The position numbers were made by a program, and so were the translations under genes. A model generated the notes under the pieces. That model made no database searches. It had not been told where the DNA came from and saw only the letters and a list, made by a program, of their open reading frames with translations. DNA of 38,302 bases from Nitrospirota bacterium (lineage in GTDB: Bacteria; Nitrospirota; Thermodesulfovibrionia; Thermodesulfovibrionales; BMS3Bbin05): NCBI GenBank assembly GCA_020351835.1, contig CP070669.1, positions 595,392 through 633,693 on the forward strand, given 5' to 3'. Below, piece by piece: positions 5,759 to 33,249 of the stretch (position 1 is the stretch's first letter; every line of letters starts with the position of its first letter).

Positions 5759-6544
5759 ATGCCTGATAGTGACCTAGTAAGGTTCGAACTGAGGGAAGGG
5801 ATAAGCATAATAACTCTAAACAGACCCGATGCACTTAACGCACTGAGCAGAGACCTTCTGGAGGAGCTCGGCGCTATCCTCGATAATGTACGCATAGAGG
5901 ACGCGATAAAGGCCGTGATAATAACCGGTGCAGGAGAAAGGGCATTTTCTGCAGGGGCCGATATCCAGTACCTGAGCAGAGCAACACCTATGGAAATAAG
6001 GGACCTTGCTCAGATAGCAGTTGAGGTAACGAGGAAGATAGAGAACCTCGGTAAAGTAGTTGTTGCTGCGATCAACGGCTATGCCTTGGGCGGAGGGCTC
6101 GAGATCGCCGAGGCCTGTATGCTTCGGGTCGCGGTCCCCTCTGCGAGGTTCGGACACCCCGAGGTCAAAGTTGGTGCGGTCTCGGGCTGGGGGGGGACGA
6201 CAAGACTGCCGAGACTAATAGGCAAGGGAAGGGCGGCAGAGCTGCTACTGACCGGCAAACATATCGGGGCGGATGAGGCCCTTCAGATAGGGCTGGTAAA
6301 TAAGGTGGTAGAAACAGAGTTCCTGATGGAGGAGTGTAAAGCTCTGGTCGGCCAGATACTGGAGAACTCCCCTCTTGCTGTAAGGCTTACGTGGGAATCT
6401 CTTCATAAGGGTCTTAATATGACTCTTGAGGAGTCTACATTGCTCGGGGCCGACTACTTCGGACTTATAGCGACAACGGAGGATTTCAAGGAAGGAACCG
6501 GAGCATTTATAGAAAAACGCAAACCTGGGTTCAAGGGTAAATAG
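5759..6544 (+). CDS. Enoyl-CoA hydratase/isomerase (crotonase) family protein
   Basis: At 261 residues this is full length for the crotonase family. It shows the CoA/oxyanion-hole segment AFSAGADIQYL at about 62-72 and both candidate catalytic glutamates: E115 in GYALGGGLEIA and E135 in FGHPEVKVG, followed by GWGGTTRLPRLIG. This supports syn-hydration of trans-2-enoyl-CoA. Substrate chain length cannot be assigned, and the Asp usual after the first Glu segment (CDI) is Met here. The start follows the preceding stop by a single base, suggesting co-transcription with the lipoprotein gene. Confidence 0.93.
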   Translation: MPDSDLVRFELREGISIITLNRPDALNALSRDLLEELGAILDNVRIEDAIKAVIITGAGERAFSAGADIQYLSRATPMEIRDLAQIAVEVTRKIENLGKVVVAAINGYALGGGLEIAEACMLRVAVPSARFGHPEVKVGAVSGWGGTTRLPRLIGKGRAAELLLTGKHIGADEALQIGLVNKVVETEFLMEECKALVGQILENSPLAVRLTWESLHKGLNMTLEESTLLGADYFGLIATTEDFKEGTGAFIEKRKPGFKGK

Positions 6545-23453: not shown

Positions 23454-24812
23454 ATGAAAGGAAAATTGTCAACAGGCATCCTGTATCTTGCTGTGTGCGC
23501 TTTTCTCCTGATCAGTGGAACGGACGTGTTAGCCGCAGCAGAGAAGCCCACGATCACTAAGCCATGTGTGCAGTGTCATAAGGGTCAAAAGGACATACTG
23601 CGCGGAAAGCTCGATTCGGTGTCGATGAAGGCCGGAACAATGAAGGTTTCAATAGGTAATGCTGTCTGGCTCGTCTCTTTTGATGACGGTCTGGAAGTCG
23701 TCGGGGCCCCGGCAGTGAACAAGATCAAGACGGGAAAAGAAGTAGCTATCTCGGTTGTCAGGGAGGGGGCCGATGTTCGTGCCAAAAAGATAACTGTAAA
23801 GCAGCCGGCAAAAGTTCCACCTGAAAAGTTGATGAAAGTGGAGGACCTTAAAAAACTTGTTGCCAAGGGGCCGGAGATGGGCAAGTACACCCTTGTCGAT
23901 GCACGTCCTGCTAAGAGATATAACGAGGGGCACATACCGGGCGCCATATCGATATTTGACGGCCAGTTCGATAATAGCATTACCAAGCTGCCTAAGGACA
24001 AGGACAATATGCTCATTTTCTATTGCGGCGGGCCTACATGAATGATGAGTCCATCCTCTGCCAGGAAGGCGGAGAAACTGGGATATACTAATGTAAAAGT
24101 GTTCCACGGCGGCATGCCGACATGGAAGAAGGCCAGGGGTGAGGTCATATCGACAGTGATCTACCCGAAGTCAATGATAGACCAGGGCGTTCCGTTCGTA
24201 GCCGTTGACCTCAGGGAAGAGAAGGATGCCGAGAAGGCCCATATCATGGGTGCCGTCGGGATACCTGCAAATAAGATCAAGAGCGCCATGGCGATGTTCC
24301 CCGCACAGAAAGGAGCCCCGATAGTCCTTTACTCTGACAATACAGAGAATGCAATGGATTCGTTTGCTGTAGTAAGGGGATGGGGATATAAGAACGTATC
24401 CGTGCTGCAGGGGGGCATGGATGCATGGCTTAAGACGGGCAACATTGGCATAAGCGGCAAGCTTGAAAGCAAGATCAACTATGTTCCTAAGCCGTTACCG
24501 GGGGTCATATCAACAGGTGAGTTCAAGAAGATAGCTGATACGAAACCATCGGACAAGTTCATCCTGGACGTAAGGGATGAAGAAGAGGCTATGATGGGAA
24601 TGCTCAAGGGGGCAAAGAATATTGCTACCCAGGAGCTGCAGTACAGGATGGACGAACTGCCAAAGAACAAGGAGATCATTATTCATTGTATAACCGGGGT
24701 AAGAGCGGAAATGGCATATCATGCTCTCAAGGAAAAAGGATTCAACTGCAGGTATCTTAATGCAAGCATCGAAATTGATCCGGACGGTAATTACAATATA
24801 ACCGATAATTAG
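23454..24812 (+). CDS. Exported CXXCH / triple-rhodanese selenoprotein (in-frame UGA at 24039-24041)
   Basis: Read through the UGA, this is one 452-residue protein: signal peptide (about 1-29), a CVQCH heme-c-type motif (38-42), a small beta domain, then three rhodanese domains (about 150-228, 235-330, 350-445). The UGA is codon 196 in the active loop of domain 1, YCGGPT-U, where relatives have Cys (YCGGPTC.LS..SA pattern); the frame continues with SPSSARKAEKLGYTNVKVFHGG, the rest of that same domain. Domain 2 has Ser for Cys (VLYSDN) and looks inactive; domain 3 keeps C412 (HCITGVRAE). A SECIS-like hairpin follows at 24056-24074. AAGGAGG precedes the ATG. The alternative, a stop with restart at the ATG at 24042, would split a domain. 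Confidence 0.82.
24056..24074 (+). promoter_or_regulatory. Bacterial SECIS-like stem-loop of the triple-rhodanese gene
   Basis: CTCTGCC (24056-24062) pairs fully with GGCGGAG (24068-24074, one U-G) around AGGAA. The loop starts 21 nt after the UGA and has G in its first two bases, within the known limits for bacterial SECIS elements. Confidence 0.7.
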
Positions 24813-28126: not shown

Positions 28127-29665
28127 CTAGTGATAATCTTCAAACATATATTTCTTGATTAAGGCCCGTGCTTTGTCGGCCTCATGCTCAGGAACAAGAG
28201 CTGATATTTCGATATATGGACCAAACAAATAGAGTAGTGCTCTATGATAATATCCCCTCAGGTAACAAGGGATCCCTTCTTTCGTTAGTATACTCTTTAG
28301 TAGTCCGGCCTTTGGCACGTCATGAAACTCCGCAACTTTCACTAATTCCTCTGATGCTCCCCTTATTCTAATATCTCCAATAATATCAAGCAGAATAGCC
28401 GTAGCCTTGATAAGCATTACTCCACCTATAAACATAGGGGCACCAAGTTGAATCATAATATATGGGAGCTTAACGAGTAAGTACAAATAAATGACACCAA
28501 TAAAGGCCATTCTCTCAAGTACCTTATCCATATAGAGCTCAGCCGTTTGTTCGTTTGATACCTTAATAATTGCATTTCTATCCTTTAGAAAAAGATTTAT
28601 TTTCTCAGAGTTATAGAATACAGATGTGAAGAAATAATAAAAAATAAAAAGAAATATTGCATAAAGCACCATATATCCAAATGATCCTGGCGACAGTTGG
28701 TTAGCTAGTGATTGGACCCACGGGACTGCAATCATTGCGGCAACTGAGGCGGGAAACAGAATCACACTAGATACAAACATCAAAGGCGTAGTACCTGCAG
28801 TTGTCAGCTTTAATGGCATAGAATATTCTTTGCCATCATTATATTTAATATCTATATTTCGATGAGCTCTTTCGGTGATATATACCACAATAAATAAGAG
28901 CACTGCTATTAACAGAAGTGGCACCACACAAACAAGTGAATTTTCAAAGTATATTGATTTGATCTGTGGCCAATAATGCGGAATCCCTCGAGAAAAGACA
29001 CCAGTAATAATTAATATACTTATCCCATGCCCAATCCCTCGACTTGTTATCATTTCAGCAAGTAATATTGTGATAAAGGTTCCTCCTATTAAGGTAAGAG
29101 CTGTTATGACTCTGAACGACACGCCAGGATTAAGGACAAGAGTGAAGTTAGCCATTGATTCTAGTCCTTTAGCCATAGAATAACTTTGTATAAATCCAAC
29201 AACTATCGTAAATAATAACGCAGTTATTTTTAATCGCAATCTTCCTTGAATACCGCTATTTCTCCATTTTTTTAAAGGCGGAGTAAAAAGTGCGAATATT
29301 TCGACTAACATGTATGCGGTAATATACGGCATAATTCCAAAACTGACTATAGAGATCATGCTAAATCCAGTGAATGCTTCAAGAAGTACATATGGGCGAT
29401 TTTGCAGGAAGTTATTTAATCCTGCATGATCAAATCCTGGAATAGGTATATTTGCTAGTAATCTATAAAGGAGGATAACTACTAAAGTAAATACGATCCT
29501 TTTGTAGAATTCAGTATATTTAAACTCCTCCTTCTTTTCAACATGGGGAAGTTCAGAAGATAATTTAGAACCACAGTCTGAACATAACTCAGTTCCCTCA
29601 ACAAATTCAGCAGGTTTACCTGTGCCAATCTTATGTTCGCAATCTGGATTTGGACAATATAACAT
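28127..29665 (-). CDS. SecY-family protein with N-terminal zinc ribbon and C-terminal DUF2007-like domain
   Basis: The 512-residue product starts with a zinc ribbon (C4, C9, C28, C31; YCPNPDCEHK...LCSDCGSKL), followed by a full SecY channel: NIPIPGFDHAGLNNFL (plug region), SFGIMPYITAYMLVEIFALF..PPLKKW, GIGHGISILIITGVFSRGIP and later helices to about 430. The last 70 residues (KAGLLKSILTKEGIPCYLRGYY...ALVPEHEADKARALI) match the DUF2007 type. The gene is visibly AT-richer than its surroundings and is not in a ribosomal protein operon, so it is an accessory SecY, likely acquired. No SecA2 or SecE is seen. An ATG start without ribosome site is used. Confidence 0.88.
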   Translation of the reverse strand: MLYCPNPDCEHKIGTGKPAEFVEGTELCSDCGSKLSSELPHVEKKEEFKYTEFYKRIVFTLVVILLYRLLANIPIPGFDHAGLNNFLQNRPYVLLEAFTGFSMISIVSFGIMPYITAYMLVEIFALFTPPLKKWRNSGIQGRLRLKITALLFTIVVGFIQSYSMAKGLESMANFTLVLNPGVSFRVITALTLIGGTFITILLAEMITSRGIGHGISILIITGVFSRGIPHYWPQIKSIYFENSLVCVVPLLLIAVLLFIVVYITERAHRNIDIKYNDGKEYSMPLKLTTAGTTPLMFVSSVILFPASVAAMIAVPWVQSLANQLSPGSFGYMVLYAIFLFIFYYFFTSVFYNSEKINLFLKDRNAIIKVSNEQTAELYMDKVLERMAFIGVIYLYLLVKLPYIMIQLGAPMFIGGVMLIKATAILLDIIGDIRIRGASEELVKVAEFHDVPKAGLLKSILTKEGIPCYLRGYYHRALLYLFGPYIEISALVPEHEADKARALIKKYMFEDYH

Positions 29666-29773: not shown

Positions 29774-29989
29774 TTATAAATTCAAGGATTTCTTTGCATT
29801 GTCCACAACACGGCGGACATCGCCGGAACATCACTTCCCCGAGGGATTATGCTCGTAGCATTTACAATTACCCTTTTTCTTCTCCGTAAGTATCTTTTCA
29901 AGTATTAATGATCTGCCCTTATTTTCAACGACATCCTTTTTAATGTCAGCTTCGGTATGCTTAAAGCAGTAACAAACCAATTTGTCCAA
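29774..29989 (-). CDS. CopZ/BFD-like [2Fe-2S] selenoprotein (in-frame UGA at 29831-29833)
   Basis: Read through the UGA this encodes 71 residues. The TTG start (29987-29989) has GGGAG 8 nt upstream. The N-terminus VCYCFKHTEADI matches BFD-like/CopZ [2Fe-2S] domains, with C6 and C8; a second pair C42/C44 follows (NCKC), then NPSGK-U53-C54-SGDV. Relatives end in NPSGRCCL.D, so the UGA replaces the first Cys of the CC pair; the frame continues for 18 residues (RRVVDNAKKSLNL) to TAA. A stem-loop meeting SECIS rules follows at 29800-29819. By family the protein is a small iron-sulfur metallochaperone. The start lies 17 bases after the Sec-rhodanese gene. Confidence 0.83.
29800..29819 (-). promoter_or_regulatory. 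Bacterial SECIS-like stem-loop of the CopZ-like gene
   Basis: On minus, TGTCCGC pairs with GTGGACA (one G-U) around CGTGTT. The loop begins 18 nt after the UGA with G as second base. The loop almost equals CGTGGTT of the neighbouring rhodanese gene, consistent with the same SelB. Confidence 0.68.
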
Positions 29990-30006
29990 AGATAATACTC
30001 CCTATC

Positions 30007-30420
30007 TCACTTTTCCGCCATCGGATACTTATTAGCTTCCCATTCAAGCCATCCACCATATAGGGCACTTATATTTTCGAATCCCTCTTCTATTAGTTCC
30101 CGAACCACGCGGGAACTGGTTTGCTCGGCAGGTCAGGCACAATATAATACGATCCTTTGTCGTTTATCATATTTTTTGCTCCATGATCTTACATCATAAG
30201 GGTTTTCCCTGATGGCACCAGGTATCTTCAAACTGCTTGATTCCCAGTCCTTTGTGTCACGCACATCTATTATTGTTAAGTCAGGGTCATGCAATTGAAC
30301 CTTTAATTCGTCTTTAGTGATTTTTTTTACACCCGTTATCGCGTGGAATGATCTCCAGGCGGTAGTGCATGATGAGATCAACAAGATTGCAAGTGCCATA
30401 TACATTATTTTCTTGCTCAA
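30007..30420 (-). CDS. Rhodanese-domain lipoprotein, selenoprotein (in-frame UGA at 30133-30135)
   Basis: Read through the UGA this gives 137 residues, starting at a TTG (30418-30420) with GAGGAG 7 nt upstream. There is a lipobox (LLISSC, Cys18) and one rhodanese domain: TIIDVRDTKDWESSSLKIPGA, then the active loop VLYC94-A-U96-PAEQTSSRV, and RELIEEGFENISALYGGWLEW. In related rhodaneses the loop reads YCACP.E.TS, so U96 takes the second Cys. If UGA were a stop, the product would end in the active site. A perfect 8-bp SECIS hairpin follows. Likely a periplasm- or outer-membrane-facing sulfur/selenium transferase or reductase (inference). Confidence 0.87.
30095..30117 (-). promoter_or_regulatory. 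Bacterial SECIS stem-loop of the rhodanese lipoprotein gene
   Basis: On minus, AGTTCCCG pairs perfectly with CGGGAACT around CGTGGTT. The loop starts 23 nt after the UGA with G as second base. The coding frame is kept through the stem. Confidence 0.8.
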
Positions 30421-30600: not shown

Positions 30601-31020
30601 ATGCCGCAAAAGGGTAAAAAGGTCCGGAAGAAACAGCTCCCCGAGAAGCGCAGAAAAGGTGCTGCACGTTCAGGCTACGAACTTAAAGGTAGGATCTGGA
30701 TGGACGGTCCTCAAGGAACCTTCATAGGTTATGGAAGAGCTATTCTCCTTGAAAGAATAAGGGAACATGGTTCTATCACCAAAGCAGCCAAATCTATGGA
30801 TATGTCATACAGGCAGGCATGGAGATTGATCAATACAATGAACGAGCAAGCCCCTAGTCCCTTCGTGATAACTTCTGCCGGTGGAAGAGGAGGCGGTGGT
30901 ACGGTCGTAACGGAACACGGGGAGAACGCGATAAATGTGTTCTGGGAAAAATACAGGGCGTTTCAGGAATTTCTGAGGCACGAAATGAGATATCTGGATT
31001 TTACAAAGGACAAATCATGA
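30601..31020 (+). CDS. ModE-type molybdate/tungstate transcriptional regulator (DNA-binding part only)
   Basis: The 139-residue product has a Lys/Arg-rich N-terminal extension (about 1-28) and a ModE/LysR-type winged helix: GRAILLERIREHGSITKAAKSMDMSYRQAWRLINTMN, SAGGRGGGGTVVTEHGENAI. The C-terminal molybdate-binding Mop domains of full ModE are absent, as in several short ModE relatives. ATG at 30601 sits at the predicted transcription start; a later Met (about residue 34) could be used instead. Its stop overlaps the tupA ATG, so it almost surely controls tungstate uptake. Confidence 0.88.
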   Translation: MPQKGKKVRKKQLPEKRRKGAARSGYELKGRIWMDGPQGTFIGYGRAILLERIREHGSITKAAKSMDMSYRQAWRLINTMNEQAPSPFVITSAGGRGGGGTVVTEHGENAINVFWEKYRAFQEFLRHEMRYLDFTKDKS

Positions 31021-31826
31021 AAAGGGTCTTGTTTACAATTTTGATCATGCTGTTCTTTGCCGGGACATCATACGCTGACAGGATTCGATGCGCATCAACG
31101 ACAAGTACGCAGAACTCGGGACTGTTTGAGTACCTTCTTCCGTTCTTTGAGAAAGAGGCGGGAGTTAAAGTGGATGTAGTGGCGGTGGGCACTGGAGCGG
31201 CTTTCAAGATAGGAATGAGAGGCGATGCTGACGTTCTACTTGTGCACGCCAAGACCGAGGAGCTTCGCCTCGTCAATGAAGGGTATTTCGTTGACCGGCA
31301 CGATGTGATGTACAATGATTTTGTAATATTAGGGCCTGTCGATGATCCTGCAGGATTAAGGGGTATACGGTCGGCCCCGATAGCATTCTCCCTCATTAAC
31401 AAACGCGGTACAGTGTTCGTTTCAAGGGGGGACAACTCCGGTACGCACAAGAAAGAGATGTCGATCTGGAAGACACTTGATATGGACCCCAGGTGGAATA
31501 AGTGGTATCTTGAGGTAGGGCAGGGTATGGCAAAGGCCATTCGCATCGCATCGGAAAAAAGGGCTTATATACTGGCTGACAGAGGCACTTGGCTTGCCAT
31601 CAATGATAGTGATGATCTCGGTATGGAGGTCCTTGTGGAGGGAGACAGGATCCTTTTTAACCAGTACGGAGTAATGATAGTTAATCCCGAAAGGCATGGA
31701 CATGTGAAGTATGATGATGCAAGGAAGTTCGTGGATTTTCTTATAAGTGAAAAGGGGCAGGGGCTTGTTGCATCCTTCAGGAACAAACAGGGAAAGCAGC
31801 TTTTCTACCCCAATGCCGGGAAATAA
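31017..31826 (+). CDS. tupA: Tungstate ABC transporter substrate-binding protein
   Basis: The 269-residue protein has a signal peptide (about 1-20), then IRCASTTSTQNSGLFEYLLPFFE, the TupA oxyanion-binding TTST.nSGL motif, and VGTGAAFKIGMRGDADVLLVHAK, FVSRGDNSGTHKKEMSIW and YILADRGTWLA. TupA-type proteins bind tungstate with high selectivity over molybdate. First transporter gene, overlapping the ModE-like regulator by 4 bases. Confidence 0.95.
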   Translation: MKRVLFTILIMLFFAGTSYADRIRCASTTSTQNSGLFEYLLPFFEKEAGVKVDVVAVGTGAAFKIGMRGDADVLLVHAKTEELRLVNEGYFVDRHDVMYNDFVILGPVDDPAGLRGIRSAPIAFSLINKRGTVFVSRGDNSGTHKKEMSIWKTLDMDPRWNKWYLEVGQGMAKAIRIASEKRAYILADRGTWLAINDSDDLGMEVLVEGDRILFNQYGVMIVNPERHGHVKYDDARKFVDFLISEKGQGLVASFRNKQGKQLFYPNAGK

Positions 31827-31837
31827 ATGAACTGAGC

Positions 31838-32533
31838 ATGGAACGATTATTCTACTCGATAAAAGAGGCATTCAGGCTCATCATTACGCTTGACAGTGAG
31901 ATGTTAGGCATAGTCTCTCTGTCCCTCGGTGTCTCTATCGCAGCGATCTGTTTCGCTTCGCTTGCAGGGATCGTCTTGGCCTATGCCCTTGCCTTCAGGA
32001 AGGTGCCTTTAAAGGCATTCGTCGTCAGCACGATGAACACGTTTATGGGTTTGCCCCCGGTCGTTGTCGGCCTGGTGTTGTATCTACTGTTATCAAGGAG
32101 CGGTCCGATGGGATTCATGAAGCTGTTATATACACCTTATGCGATGGTGATAGCACAGGTACTGCTCGCCTTGCCTATCATTACTGCTATGAGCCATGCA
32201 TCGCTGGTAGCAGTAAGACCGGCAATTAAGTACGCCGCTAAAGGACTAGGGGCAAGTGATGCACAGGCATCGATAGCGGTTGTGCGGTATGCAAGATACG
32301 GGATCATATCTTCGGTCATGGCCGGCCTTGGAAGGGTGATGGCGGAGGTCGGGGCCGTGCTGATAGTCGGTGGCAACATAGCCGGGTATACCAGGGTCAT
32401 GACCACGACAATTGCTCTCGAATATGACAAAGGAAACTTCGAGCTGGCAATAGCTCTCGGGATAATACTGCTTTTAATAGCGCTTATATTGAACTCAGCT
32501 CTATACATGTACCAGAGAAAGGTATACAGATGA
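31838..32533 (+). CDS. tupB: Tungstate ABC transporter permease
   Basis: The 231-residue permease has about five helices and the ABC permease EAA-type loop (AAKGLGASDAQASIAVVRYARYG...GLGRVMAEVGAVLIVGGNI). Its sequence order and place between tupA and tupC fit TupB. The stop overlaps the tupC start by 4 bases. Confidence 0.95.
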   Translation: MERLFYSIKEAFRLIITLDSEMLGIVSLSLGVSIAAICFASLAGIVLAYALAFRKVPLKAFVVSTMNTFMGLPPVVVGLVLYLLLSRSGPMGFMKLLYTPYAMVIAQVLLALPIITAMSHASLVAVRPAIKYAAKGLGASDAQASIAVVRYARYGIISSVMAGLGRVMAEVGAVLIVGGNIAGYTRVMTTTIALEYDKGNFELAIALGIILLLIALILNSALYMYQRKVYR

Positions 32534-33249
32534 ACATAGTTCTCAGCAATATCTCAAAAAGCTATAACGGAACAAGGGCGCTAAGGGAATGCAGTGTTGC
32601 GATAGAGAAAGGGATATCAACTGCTGTGATCGGGCCAAACGGCAGCGGCAAGTCTACACTGCTCAGGATCGCGGCACTGATAGAAGGTCCTGGCTCAGGG
32701 AAGGTCAGTTACGGGGAGTTTCGGTCAGCGGATGATGTTAAGAAGTTGAGGCAATTAATAGGGGTGGTGCTCTCCGGAGACACGTTGTTCAATGATTCCG
32801 TATATGATAATGTCGCATACGGCCTTAAGATAAGGAAGATGAATAAAAACGAGCTAAGAGGCAAGGTGAGCGATATGCTGGCTTCGCTTAGTTTGTCCGA
32901 CAAGGCTGGCAAACATGCAATGGAGCTGTCATCCGGTGAGGCCCAAAGGGTCGCTGTTGCCCGTGCACTTGTAACGGAGCCTGAGTATCTGTTCCTTGAC
33001 GAACCGACCGCCTCTCTTGACCCGCTTAACACAGAGATAATAGAGAACGCACTTCAGGAGATCAGGGCCCTGAGAAGAATGACCATTGTGACGGTAACAC
33101 ATAATATGTTCCAGACAAAGCGAATTGCTGACAGGGTTATGATGATGTATGAGGGGAAGGTCATTGAAGAGAACATCACAGGAGCAATATTTGACAGTCC
33201 TGAGAACGAGATAACCCGCAGGTTCATCAACGGCATAATGGTCTACTAA
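32530..33249 (+). CDS. tupC: Tungstate ABC transporter ATP-binding protein
   Basis: The 239-residue ATPase has Walker A GPNGSGKST (about 37-45), signature LSSGEAQRVAVARAL, Walker B YLFLDEPTASLDP and switch His in VTVTHN. It energises TupAB. Last gene of the ModE-tupABC unit; a convergent small gene follows. Confidence 0.95.
   Translation: MNIVLSNISKSYNGTRALRECSVAIEKGISTAVIGPNGSGKSTLLRIAALIEGPGSGKVSYGEFRSADDVKKLRQLIGVVLSGDTLFNDSVYDNVAYGLKIRKMNKNELRGKVSDMLASLSLSDKAGKHAMELSSGEAQRVAVARALVTEPEYLFLDEPTASLDPLNTEIIENALQEIRALRRMTIVTVTHNMFQTKRIADRVMMMYEGKVIEENITGAIFDSPENEITRRFINGIMVY

Follow-up and report, generated by a model that had tools for sequence, protein, structure and literature searches.

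copZ-Sec, a predicted short [2Fe-2S] selenoprotein of a Nitrospirota bacterium, and the possible role of its family in soft metal(loid) handling

Introduction

The minus strand of a 38,302-nucleotide stretch of Nitrospirota DNA (contig CP070669.1, positions 595,392 to 633,693; the whole stretch is referred to as the window) carries a small reading frame interrupted by an in-frame UGA, and ordinary annotation truncates such genes at the UGA. The locus raises the question of whether this UGA is read as selenocysteine (Sec), and if so, what a Sec-Cys pair may do in a small iron-sulfur protein. An earlier note, made from the sequence alone, identified the product as the BFD half of CopZ with Sec replacing the first Cys of its CC pair, and this identification held in every test described below; neither of the two outcomes that the note had given as grounds for refuting it occurred.

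Selenocysteine reading of copZ-Sec

The gene, designated copZ-Sec, and the signals around it are as follows.

29774..29989, minus strand: copZ-type [2Fe-2S] selenoprotein gene of 71 codons, TTG start at 29989, TAA stop at 29776-29774
29831..29833, minus strand: in-frame UGA at codon 53 (Sec53), opening the U-C pair of GKUC
29998..30003, minus strand: AGGGAG, Shine-Dalgarno-like by sequence, 8 nt upstream of the TTG start
29800..29819, minus strand: SECIS hairpin of 7 bp, loop CGUGUU (29812-29807), beginning 11 nt past the UGA codon, from folding and covariation

The extent previously given for a 71-codon gene masked by the UGA proved correct, and its TTG start lies 17 nt from the stop of the neighbouring rhodanese gene. 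The full read-through product, (M)DKLVCYCFKHTEADIKKDVVENKGRSLILEKILTEKKKGNCKCYEHNPSGKUCSGDVRRVVDNAKKSLNL, is of 71 residues with Sec at position 53, and its C-terminal part reads ...NCKCYEHNPSGK-U-C-SGDVRRVV. The proposal that the parts before and after the UGA belong to one protein is borne out by the homologues, in which the frame runs on beyond a UGA placed at the matching residue. A single-sequence scan of genome contigs gave no matches, while an alignment query succeeded, recovering 127 relatives from named genomes, of which 80 loci were kept. The UGA stands at the codon-53 position in 28 Nitrospirota genomes, the window genome included (396 genomes searched), and in 79 of the 80 named-genome loci from several phyla, some genomes being present in both sets. 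Citrifermentans bremense, Malonomonas rubra, Desulfoluna butyratoxydans and Desulforhopalus singaporensis are cultured carriers. The UGA aligns with a Cys of homologues and the frame downstream of it is conserved. Six Cys/Sec positions (6, 8, 42, 44, 53 and 54) are invariant in the alignment, as is Asp57; Val58, Val61 and Asp63, which like Cys54 and Asp57 follow the UGA, are nearly so.

The sole locus of the 80 without the UGA (L122) has a one-base deletion just before it (around 6150-6175), which reflects either a recent loss or a mistake in the assembly. It was not accepted as a natural loss of Sec, as a one-base indel may be an assembly error. The UGA/TGY alternation that the earlier note had proposed to look for does not occur in the short family, since each of the 79 readable loci among the 80 carries UGA, and Cys is confined to a separate, longer clade. 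One of the two scan patterns included a back-translated Cys-Cys pair and would be expected to pick out members with Cys; even so, the 80 loci contained no member with Cys.

The 7-bp SECIS-like hairpin with loop CGUGUU described earlier is present just 3' of the UGA, in the manner of a bacterial SECIS. The hairpin of the window alone folds modestly better than its shuffles (z −1.9), and an Rfam scan of the window matched no family. Nearly all members have a loop of six bases on a stem that reads GUCCRC / GYGGAC or varies from it, and this 6-bp stem form begins 12 nt past the UGA codon. Among 78 distinct sequences, 97.2% of the hairpin cells are paired and double changes number 9; none of 500 shuffles (mean 0.173) reaches the observed covariation score, 0.228, and pairing in slid registers is at most 56%. 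Pair 18-31 is CG in 69 sequences, UA in 7 and UG in 2, while pair 20-29 is GU, GC or AU and never A-C. The wobble base of the valine codon and the next Asp/Asn codon covary as a pair, C-G occurring with GAC and U-A with AAC. In 18 Cys homologues the corresponding segment keeps only 1 to 4 of the 6 pairs and the hairpin is absent, the median folding energy being −1.3 kcal mol−1 as compared to −10.6 kcal mol−1 for the Sec forms.

The machinery for Sec is complete in the window genome, where SelB (374.9 bits), SelA (612.6) and SelD (369.1) are encoded, along with a tRNA-Sec of anticodon UCA; the SelD gene itself contains a UGA. Conservation of the UGA, the covarying hairpin and this machinery together lead to the conclusion that copZ-Sec is a genuine selenoprotein gene, with Sec predicted to be incorporated at the UGA by the SelB/SECIS system. 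A true stop at the UGA, which would leave a 52-residue peptide and make the downstream conservation an accident, would suit a small gene with a TTG start and the modest folding of the window hairpin. That about 80 loci keep the residues and the frame beyond the UGA, together with the covarying SECIS, a UGA in all readable members and the full Sec machinery, already contradicts this reading, which is scarcely credible.

The short Sec form and its Cys homologues

In a tree of 97 domains all Sec forms fall on one side of a single branch in 96% of bootstrap trees, although the tree rests on only 65 columns and many of its forks are unresolved. The short Sec form, of ~70 aa and devoid of the CopZ zinc domain, thus looks like one clade, i.e. 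a single lineage. In Cys homologues from the phylum the Cys-Cys pair is accompanied by a cysteine-rich domain at the N-terminus, and the one homologue tested with Pfam contains zf_CopZ, which is absent from the 71-aa protein. The Cys homologues read NP(S/Q)GxCC, in agreement with the NPSGxCC claimed earlier for this family. Three of them (L132, L133 and L142), from the order of the window genome, join a CopZ-type [2Fe-2S] domain with Cys to a MerT-like mercury transporter in one protein; elsewhere in the phylum (L128) a Cys CopZ gene lies immediately upstream of a MerA-like reading frame.

Search with profile models, as suggested by the earlier note for the CopZ and BFD-like families, placed the protein with the BFD half of CopZ, at scores below the curated cut-offs. 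CopZ_Nterm_CC (NF047645) gives 49.6 bits over profile positions 85-137 of 138, i.e. the BFD half only (cut-off 100), and CopZ_Nterm_CU (NF045877) gives 34 bits over positions 98-159 of 161 (cut-off 190); these cut-offs are missed because copZ-Sec comprises only the [2Fe-2S] half and lacks the zinc-binding domain. Fer2_BFD (PF04324), at 16.5 bits, also stays below its gathering score of 26. The only solved relative found with phmmer is A. fulgidus CopZ (2hu9), aligned over VCYC and C-x4-NPSGRCC. The AlphaFold model of copZ-Sec has a pLDDT of 92.9, and its best Foldseek matches are all Bfd, though weak, with E-values above 1. As the protein is not matched by the model NF045683 (MerT/CopZ fusion-like selenoprotein), a link to that family was dropped and none is claimed.

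Genomic context

Upstream of copZ-Sec in the window lies a second selenoprotein gene with the following features.

30007..30420, minus strand: rhodanese-like selenoprotein (LYCAU), stop TGA at 30009-30007, with an N-terminal lipoprotein-type signal LLISSC
30133..30135, minus strand: in-frame UGA, Sec of the rhodanese
30095..30117, minus strand: 8-bp hairpin (loop CGUGGUU) 3' of the rhodanese UGA, energy not better than shuffles

The rhodanese contains the LYCAU motif and passes the cut-off of 115 for NF041203 (rhodanese_LYCAU) with 151.8 bits. Near-identity of the two hairpin loops, pointed out earlier, is confirmed, CGUGUU on 7 bp in copZ-Sec standing against CGUGGUU on 8 bp in the rhodanese. 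The rhodanese-copZ pair was rejected as a conserved operon, as a pattern search did not find it elsewhere in the 80 loci inspected and the one genome of the same genus has neither Sec gene. Directly downstream of copZ-Sec (28127-29665, minus strand) is a gene for a SecY-like protein (PF00344, below the SecY and SecY2 cut-offs), whose N-terminus has a cysteine-rich segment resembling a zinc ribbon and whose C-terminus has a DUF2007 domain. Oriented away from the selenoprotein pair, a ModE-like regulator and then a TupA-like tungstate ABC transporter set occupy 30601-33249 on the plus strand, the permease and ATPase being assigned from ORF translations. A triple-rhodanese protein at 23454-24812 (plus strand) is split by an in-frame UGA at 24039-24041 (YCGGPT-U-MMS); its read-through of 451 aa has three Rhodanese stretches, and the motif matches UxxS, catalogued for form 1 of the rhodanese selenoproteins.

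Genes recurring near the 80 loci are those of ACR3, an ArsP-type permease, an ArsC-like protein, an ArsE-like thioredoxin and ArsR. At least one of ACR3, ArsP, ArsC and ArsE is present within 6 kb in 23 of the 80 loci, nearly all on the same strand as copZ (ACR3 in 14, ArsP in 16, ArsE in 15 and ArsC in 9). ACR3 was assigned with TIGR00832, a representative passing its cut-off. As 100 genomes of the phylum, of about 2.6 Mb each, hold 39 copies above the cut-off, the 766 kb inspected would be expected to hold about 0.1 ACR3, whereas 14 loci were observed to have one. Mercury genes, with a MerT-type hit in each case, occur within 6 kb in 4 further loci, distinct from the 23: MerR-like and MerT in L077 and L109, MerR-like, a MerT-like segment and MerF in L067, and MerA with a MerC-family protein in L072. 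Being related, the loci are only partly independent of one another as samples. Gene order varies with the group, being ArsP-ArsE-ArsR-ACR3-Trx-copZ in Nitrospirota and ArsR-ArsC-ArsP-copZ in the deltaproteobacterial loci, which speaks against a single locus having simply been inherited by both.

Roughly two in three loci, the window copy and its nearest relatives (L048-L054) among them, have no ars or mer genes nearby, so that a role with metal(loid)s may not extend to the whole family. The ACR3 of the window genome lies about 310 kb from copZ-Sec. Thioredoxin and CcdA genes adjoin Sec-copZ in several loci. In eight loci of Desulfobulbaceae/Desulfocapsaceae and relatives (L086, L091, L096, L098, L099, L115, L121 and L126) a TauE/SafE-family permease follows Sec-copZ directly, often with an MFS transporter or a ChrA-type gene, which suggests a second conserved context of Sec-copZ.

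Probable cluster ligands and proposed function

A [2Fe-2S] cluster needs four ligands. Residues 6, 8 and 44 of copZ-Sec correspond to cysteines of A. fulgidus CopZ, and the fourth ligand would be one of the 53/54 pair. The last helix of the copZ-Sec model spans residues 55-68 and is preceded by Cys54, which, in a register set by eye, falls on the last cysteine of Bfd, while residue 53 does not. This position favours, though weakly, Cys54 as the likelier ligand, with the selenolate of Sec53 left free; the weakness lies in the automatic profile alignment with Bfd, which reaches only the N-terminal CxC and stops short of this region. Ligand assignment by that profile comparison was therefore dropped. 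The protein would thus hold one cluster through Cys6, Cys8, Cys44 and probably Cys54, and the selenolate, perhaps with the invariant Cys42, would form a very soft, redox-active site next to it.

The linkage to ars and mer genes, taken with the MerT fusions of the Cys homologues, suggests that the Sec-Cys site may bind or reduce soft metal(loid)s. It is rather probable that copZ-Sec, which corresponds to the BFD-like [2Fe-2S] half of CopZ but has Sec53-Cys54 where CopZ has Cys-Cys, is a cytosolic selenoprotein handling soft metal(loid)s such as As(III) or Hg(II) in anaerobes. It would most likely capture and/or reduce these thiophilic metal(loid)s in anaerobic cells and then hand them to efflux or reduction partners such as ACR3, ArsP or MerT/MerA. 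This role is derived from the operon context of relatives rather than from the neighbours of the window gene itself.

Alternatively, copZ-Sec may be a small Bfd-like ferredoxin that transfers electrons with a partner, in which Sec tunes or protects the site and binds no metal(loid), the ars/mer linkage then reflecting electron supply (e.g. beside thioredoxin and CcdA) and not chaperoning. The fold matches to Bfd, the thioredoxin or CcdA genes flanking several loci and the rhodanese neighbour in the window agree with such a function; however, Bfd has no vicinal Cys/Sec pair at that place, and invariance of both the U-C pair and Cys42 goes beyond the needs of a plain ferredoxin, so that this explanation appears possible at best. 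A different arrangement of the cluster is also conceivable, with Sec53 itself as a selenolate ligand and Cys54 as a free or labile partner. Both residues are invariant and relatives have Sec at either position of the pair (GxUC, CU), so position alone does not force a pure bystander role on Sec; the manual register nevertheless puts Cys54 on the last Bfd cysteine, and a PDB search for a Sec-form structure, which found none, was also counted against it, making ligation by Sec53 quite unlikely. The broader proposal that Sec53 ligates the cluster iron or bridges the cluster to As(III)/Hg(II), as a dedicated metal(loid) component of anaerobic ars/mer operons, is unlikely; if true, it would represent a natural selenolate-liganded iron-sulfur site. 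The preferred reading, a metal(loid)-handling protein with Sec53 outside the cluster, carries its own testable idea, namely that selenium beside an iron-sulfur cluster serves to handle toxic soft metal(loid)s. It is the Sec-only clade, the absence of the zinc domain and the repeated placement with ars/mer genes that turn an entry in a selenoprotein table into such an idea.

Comparison with known systems

The Sec-CopZ family is not new, its GxUC and CU forms being already catalogued, and the window gene adds another member; the operon association and the Sec-only clade may be the new parts. No matched NCBIfam model covers the short Sec form above its cut-off. Two reviews list a '(2Fe-2S)-binding protein (copper chaperone CopZ family) form 1', for which the later one gives the motif GxUC, and a form 2 with a CU motif (PMC13188914, PMC9312934). 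The main text of the paper that both cite for the CopZ selenoprotein (PMC2398784) does not name CopZ. According to the later review, several selenoproteins of metal transport have been implicated in resistance to mercury or arsenic (PMC13188914); a literature search, which did not reach the most relevant NCBI papers, gave no paper linking form 1 to arsenic or mercury operons.

With its GKUC motif and its similarity to BFD/CopZ, copZ-Sec agrees with form 1, a cd10141-type BFD domain with GxUC, exemplified by WP_245779778.1 (PMC13188914, PMC9312934), in domain type and in the Sec position G-x-U-C; the reviews give family, motif and example without length, context or clade. The Csac_0668 family 2Fe-2S (seleno)protein (NF045877, CopZ_Nterm_CU, form 2) is alike in the BFD half, whereas its Sec is second in the pair (CU) and its model includes an N-terminal part; Sec comes first in copZ-Sec. 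The putative iron-sulfur cluster-binding metallochaperone CopZ_Nterm_CC (NF047645) shares the [2Fe-2S] half and the NPSGxCC position, but has a zinc domain (zf_CopZ, PF18423) and Cys-Cys, in contrast to the Sec-Cys of copZ-Sec, which has no zinc domain. The LYCAU rhodanese (seleno)protein family (NF041203) has a full member in the neighbour of copZ-Sec, a protein separate from it. A. fulgidus CopZ (2hu9), which also has a C-terminal copper-binding domain, can be aligned with copZ-Sec over VCYC and C-x4-NPSGRCC, whereas it has a zinc site, has Cys for Sec and lacks one Cys of the Cys42/44 CxC. Bfd (PDB 4e6k, 6e6r) has the BFD fold and an N-terminal CxC like that of copZ-Sec, with a TM-score of about 0.67 on the Bfd length, but ends in a C-terminal CxxC without Sec, where copZ-Sec has C-x8-UC.
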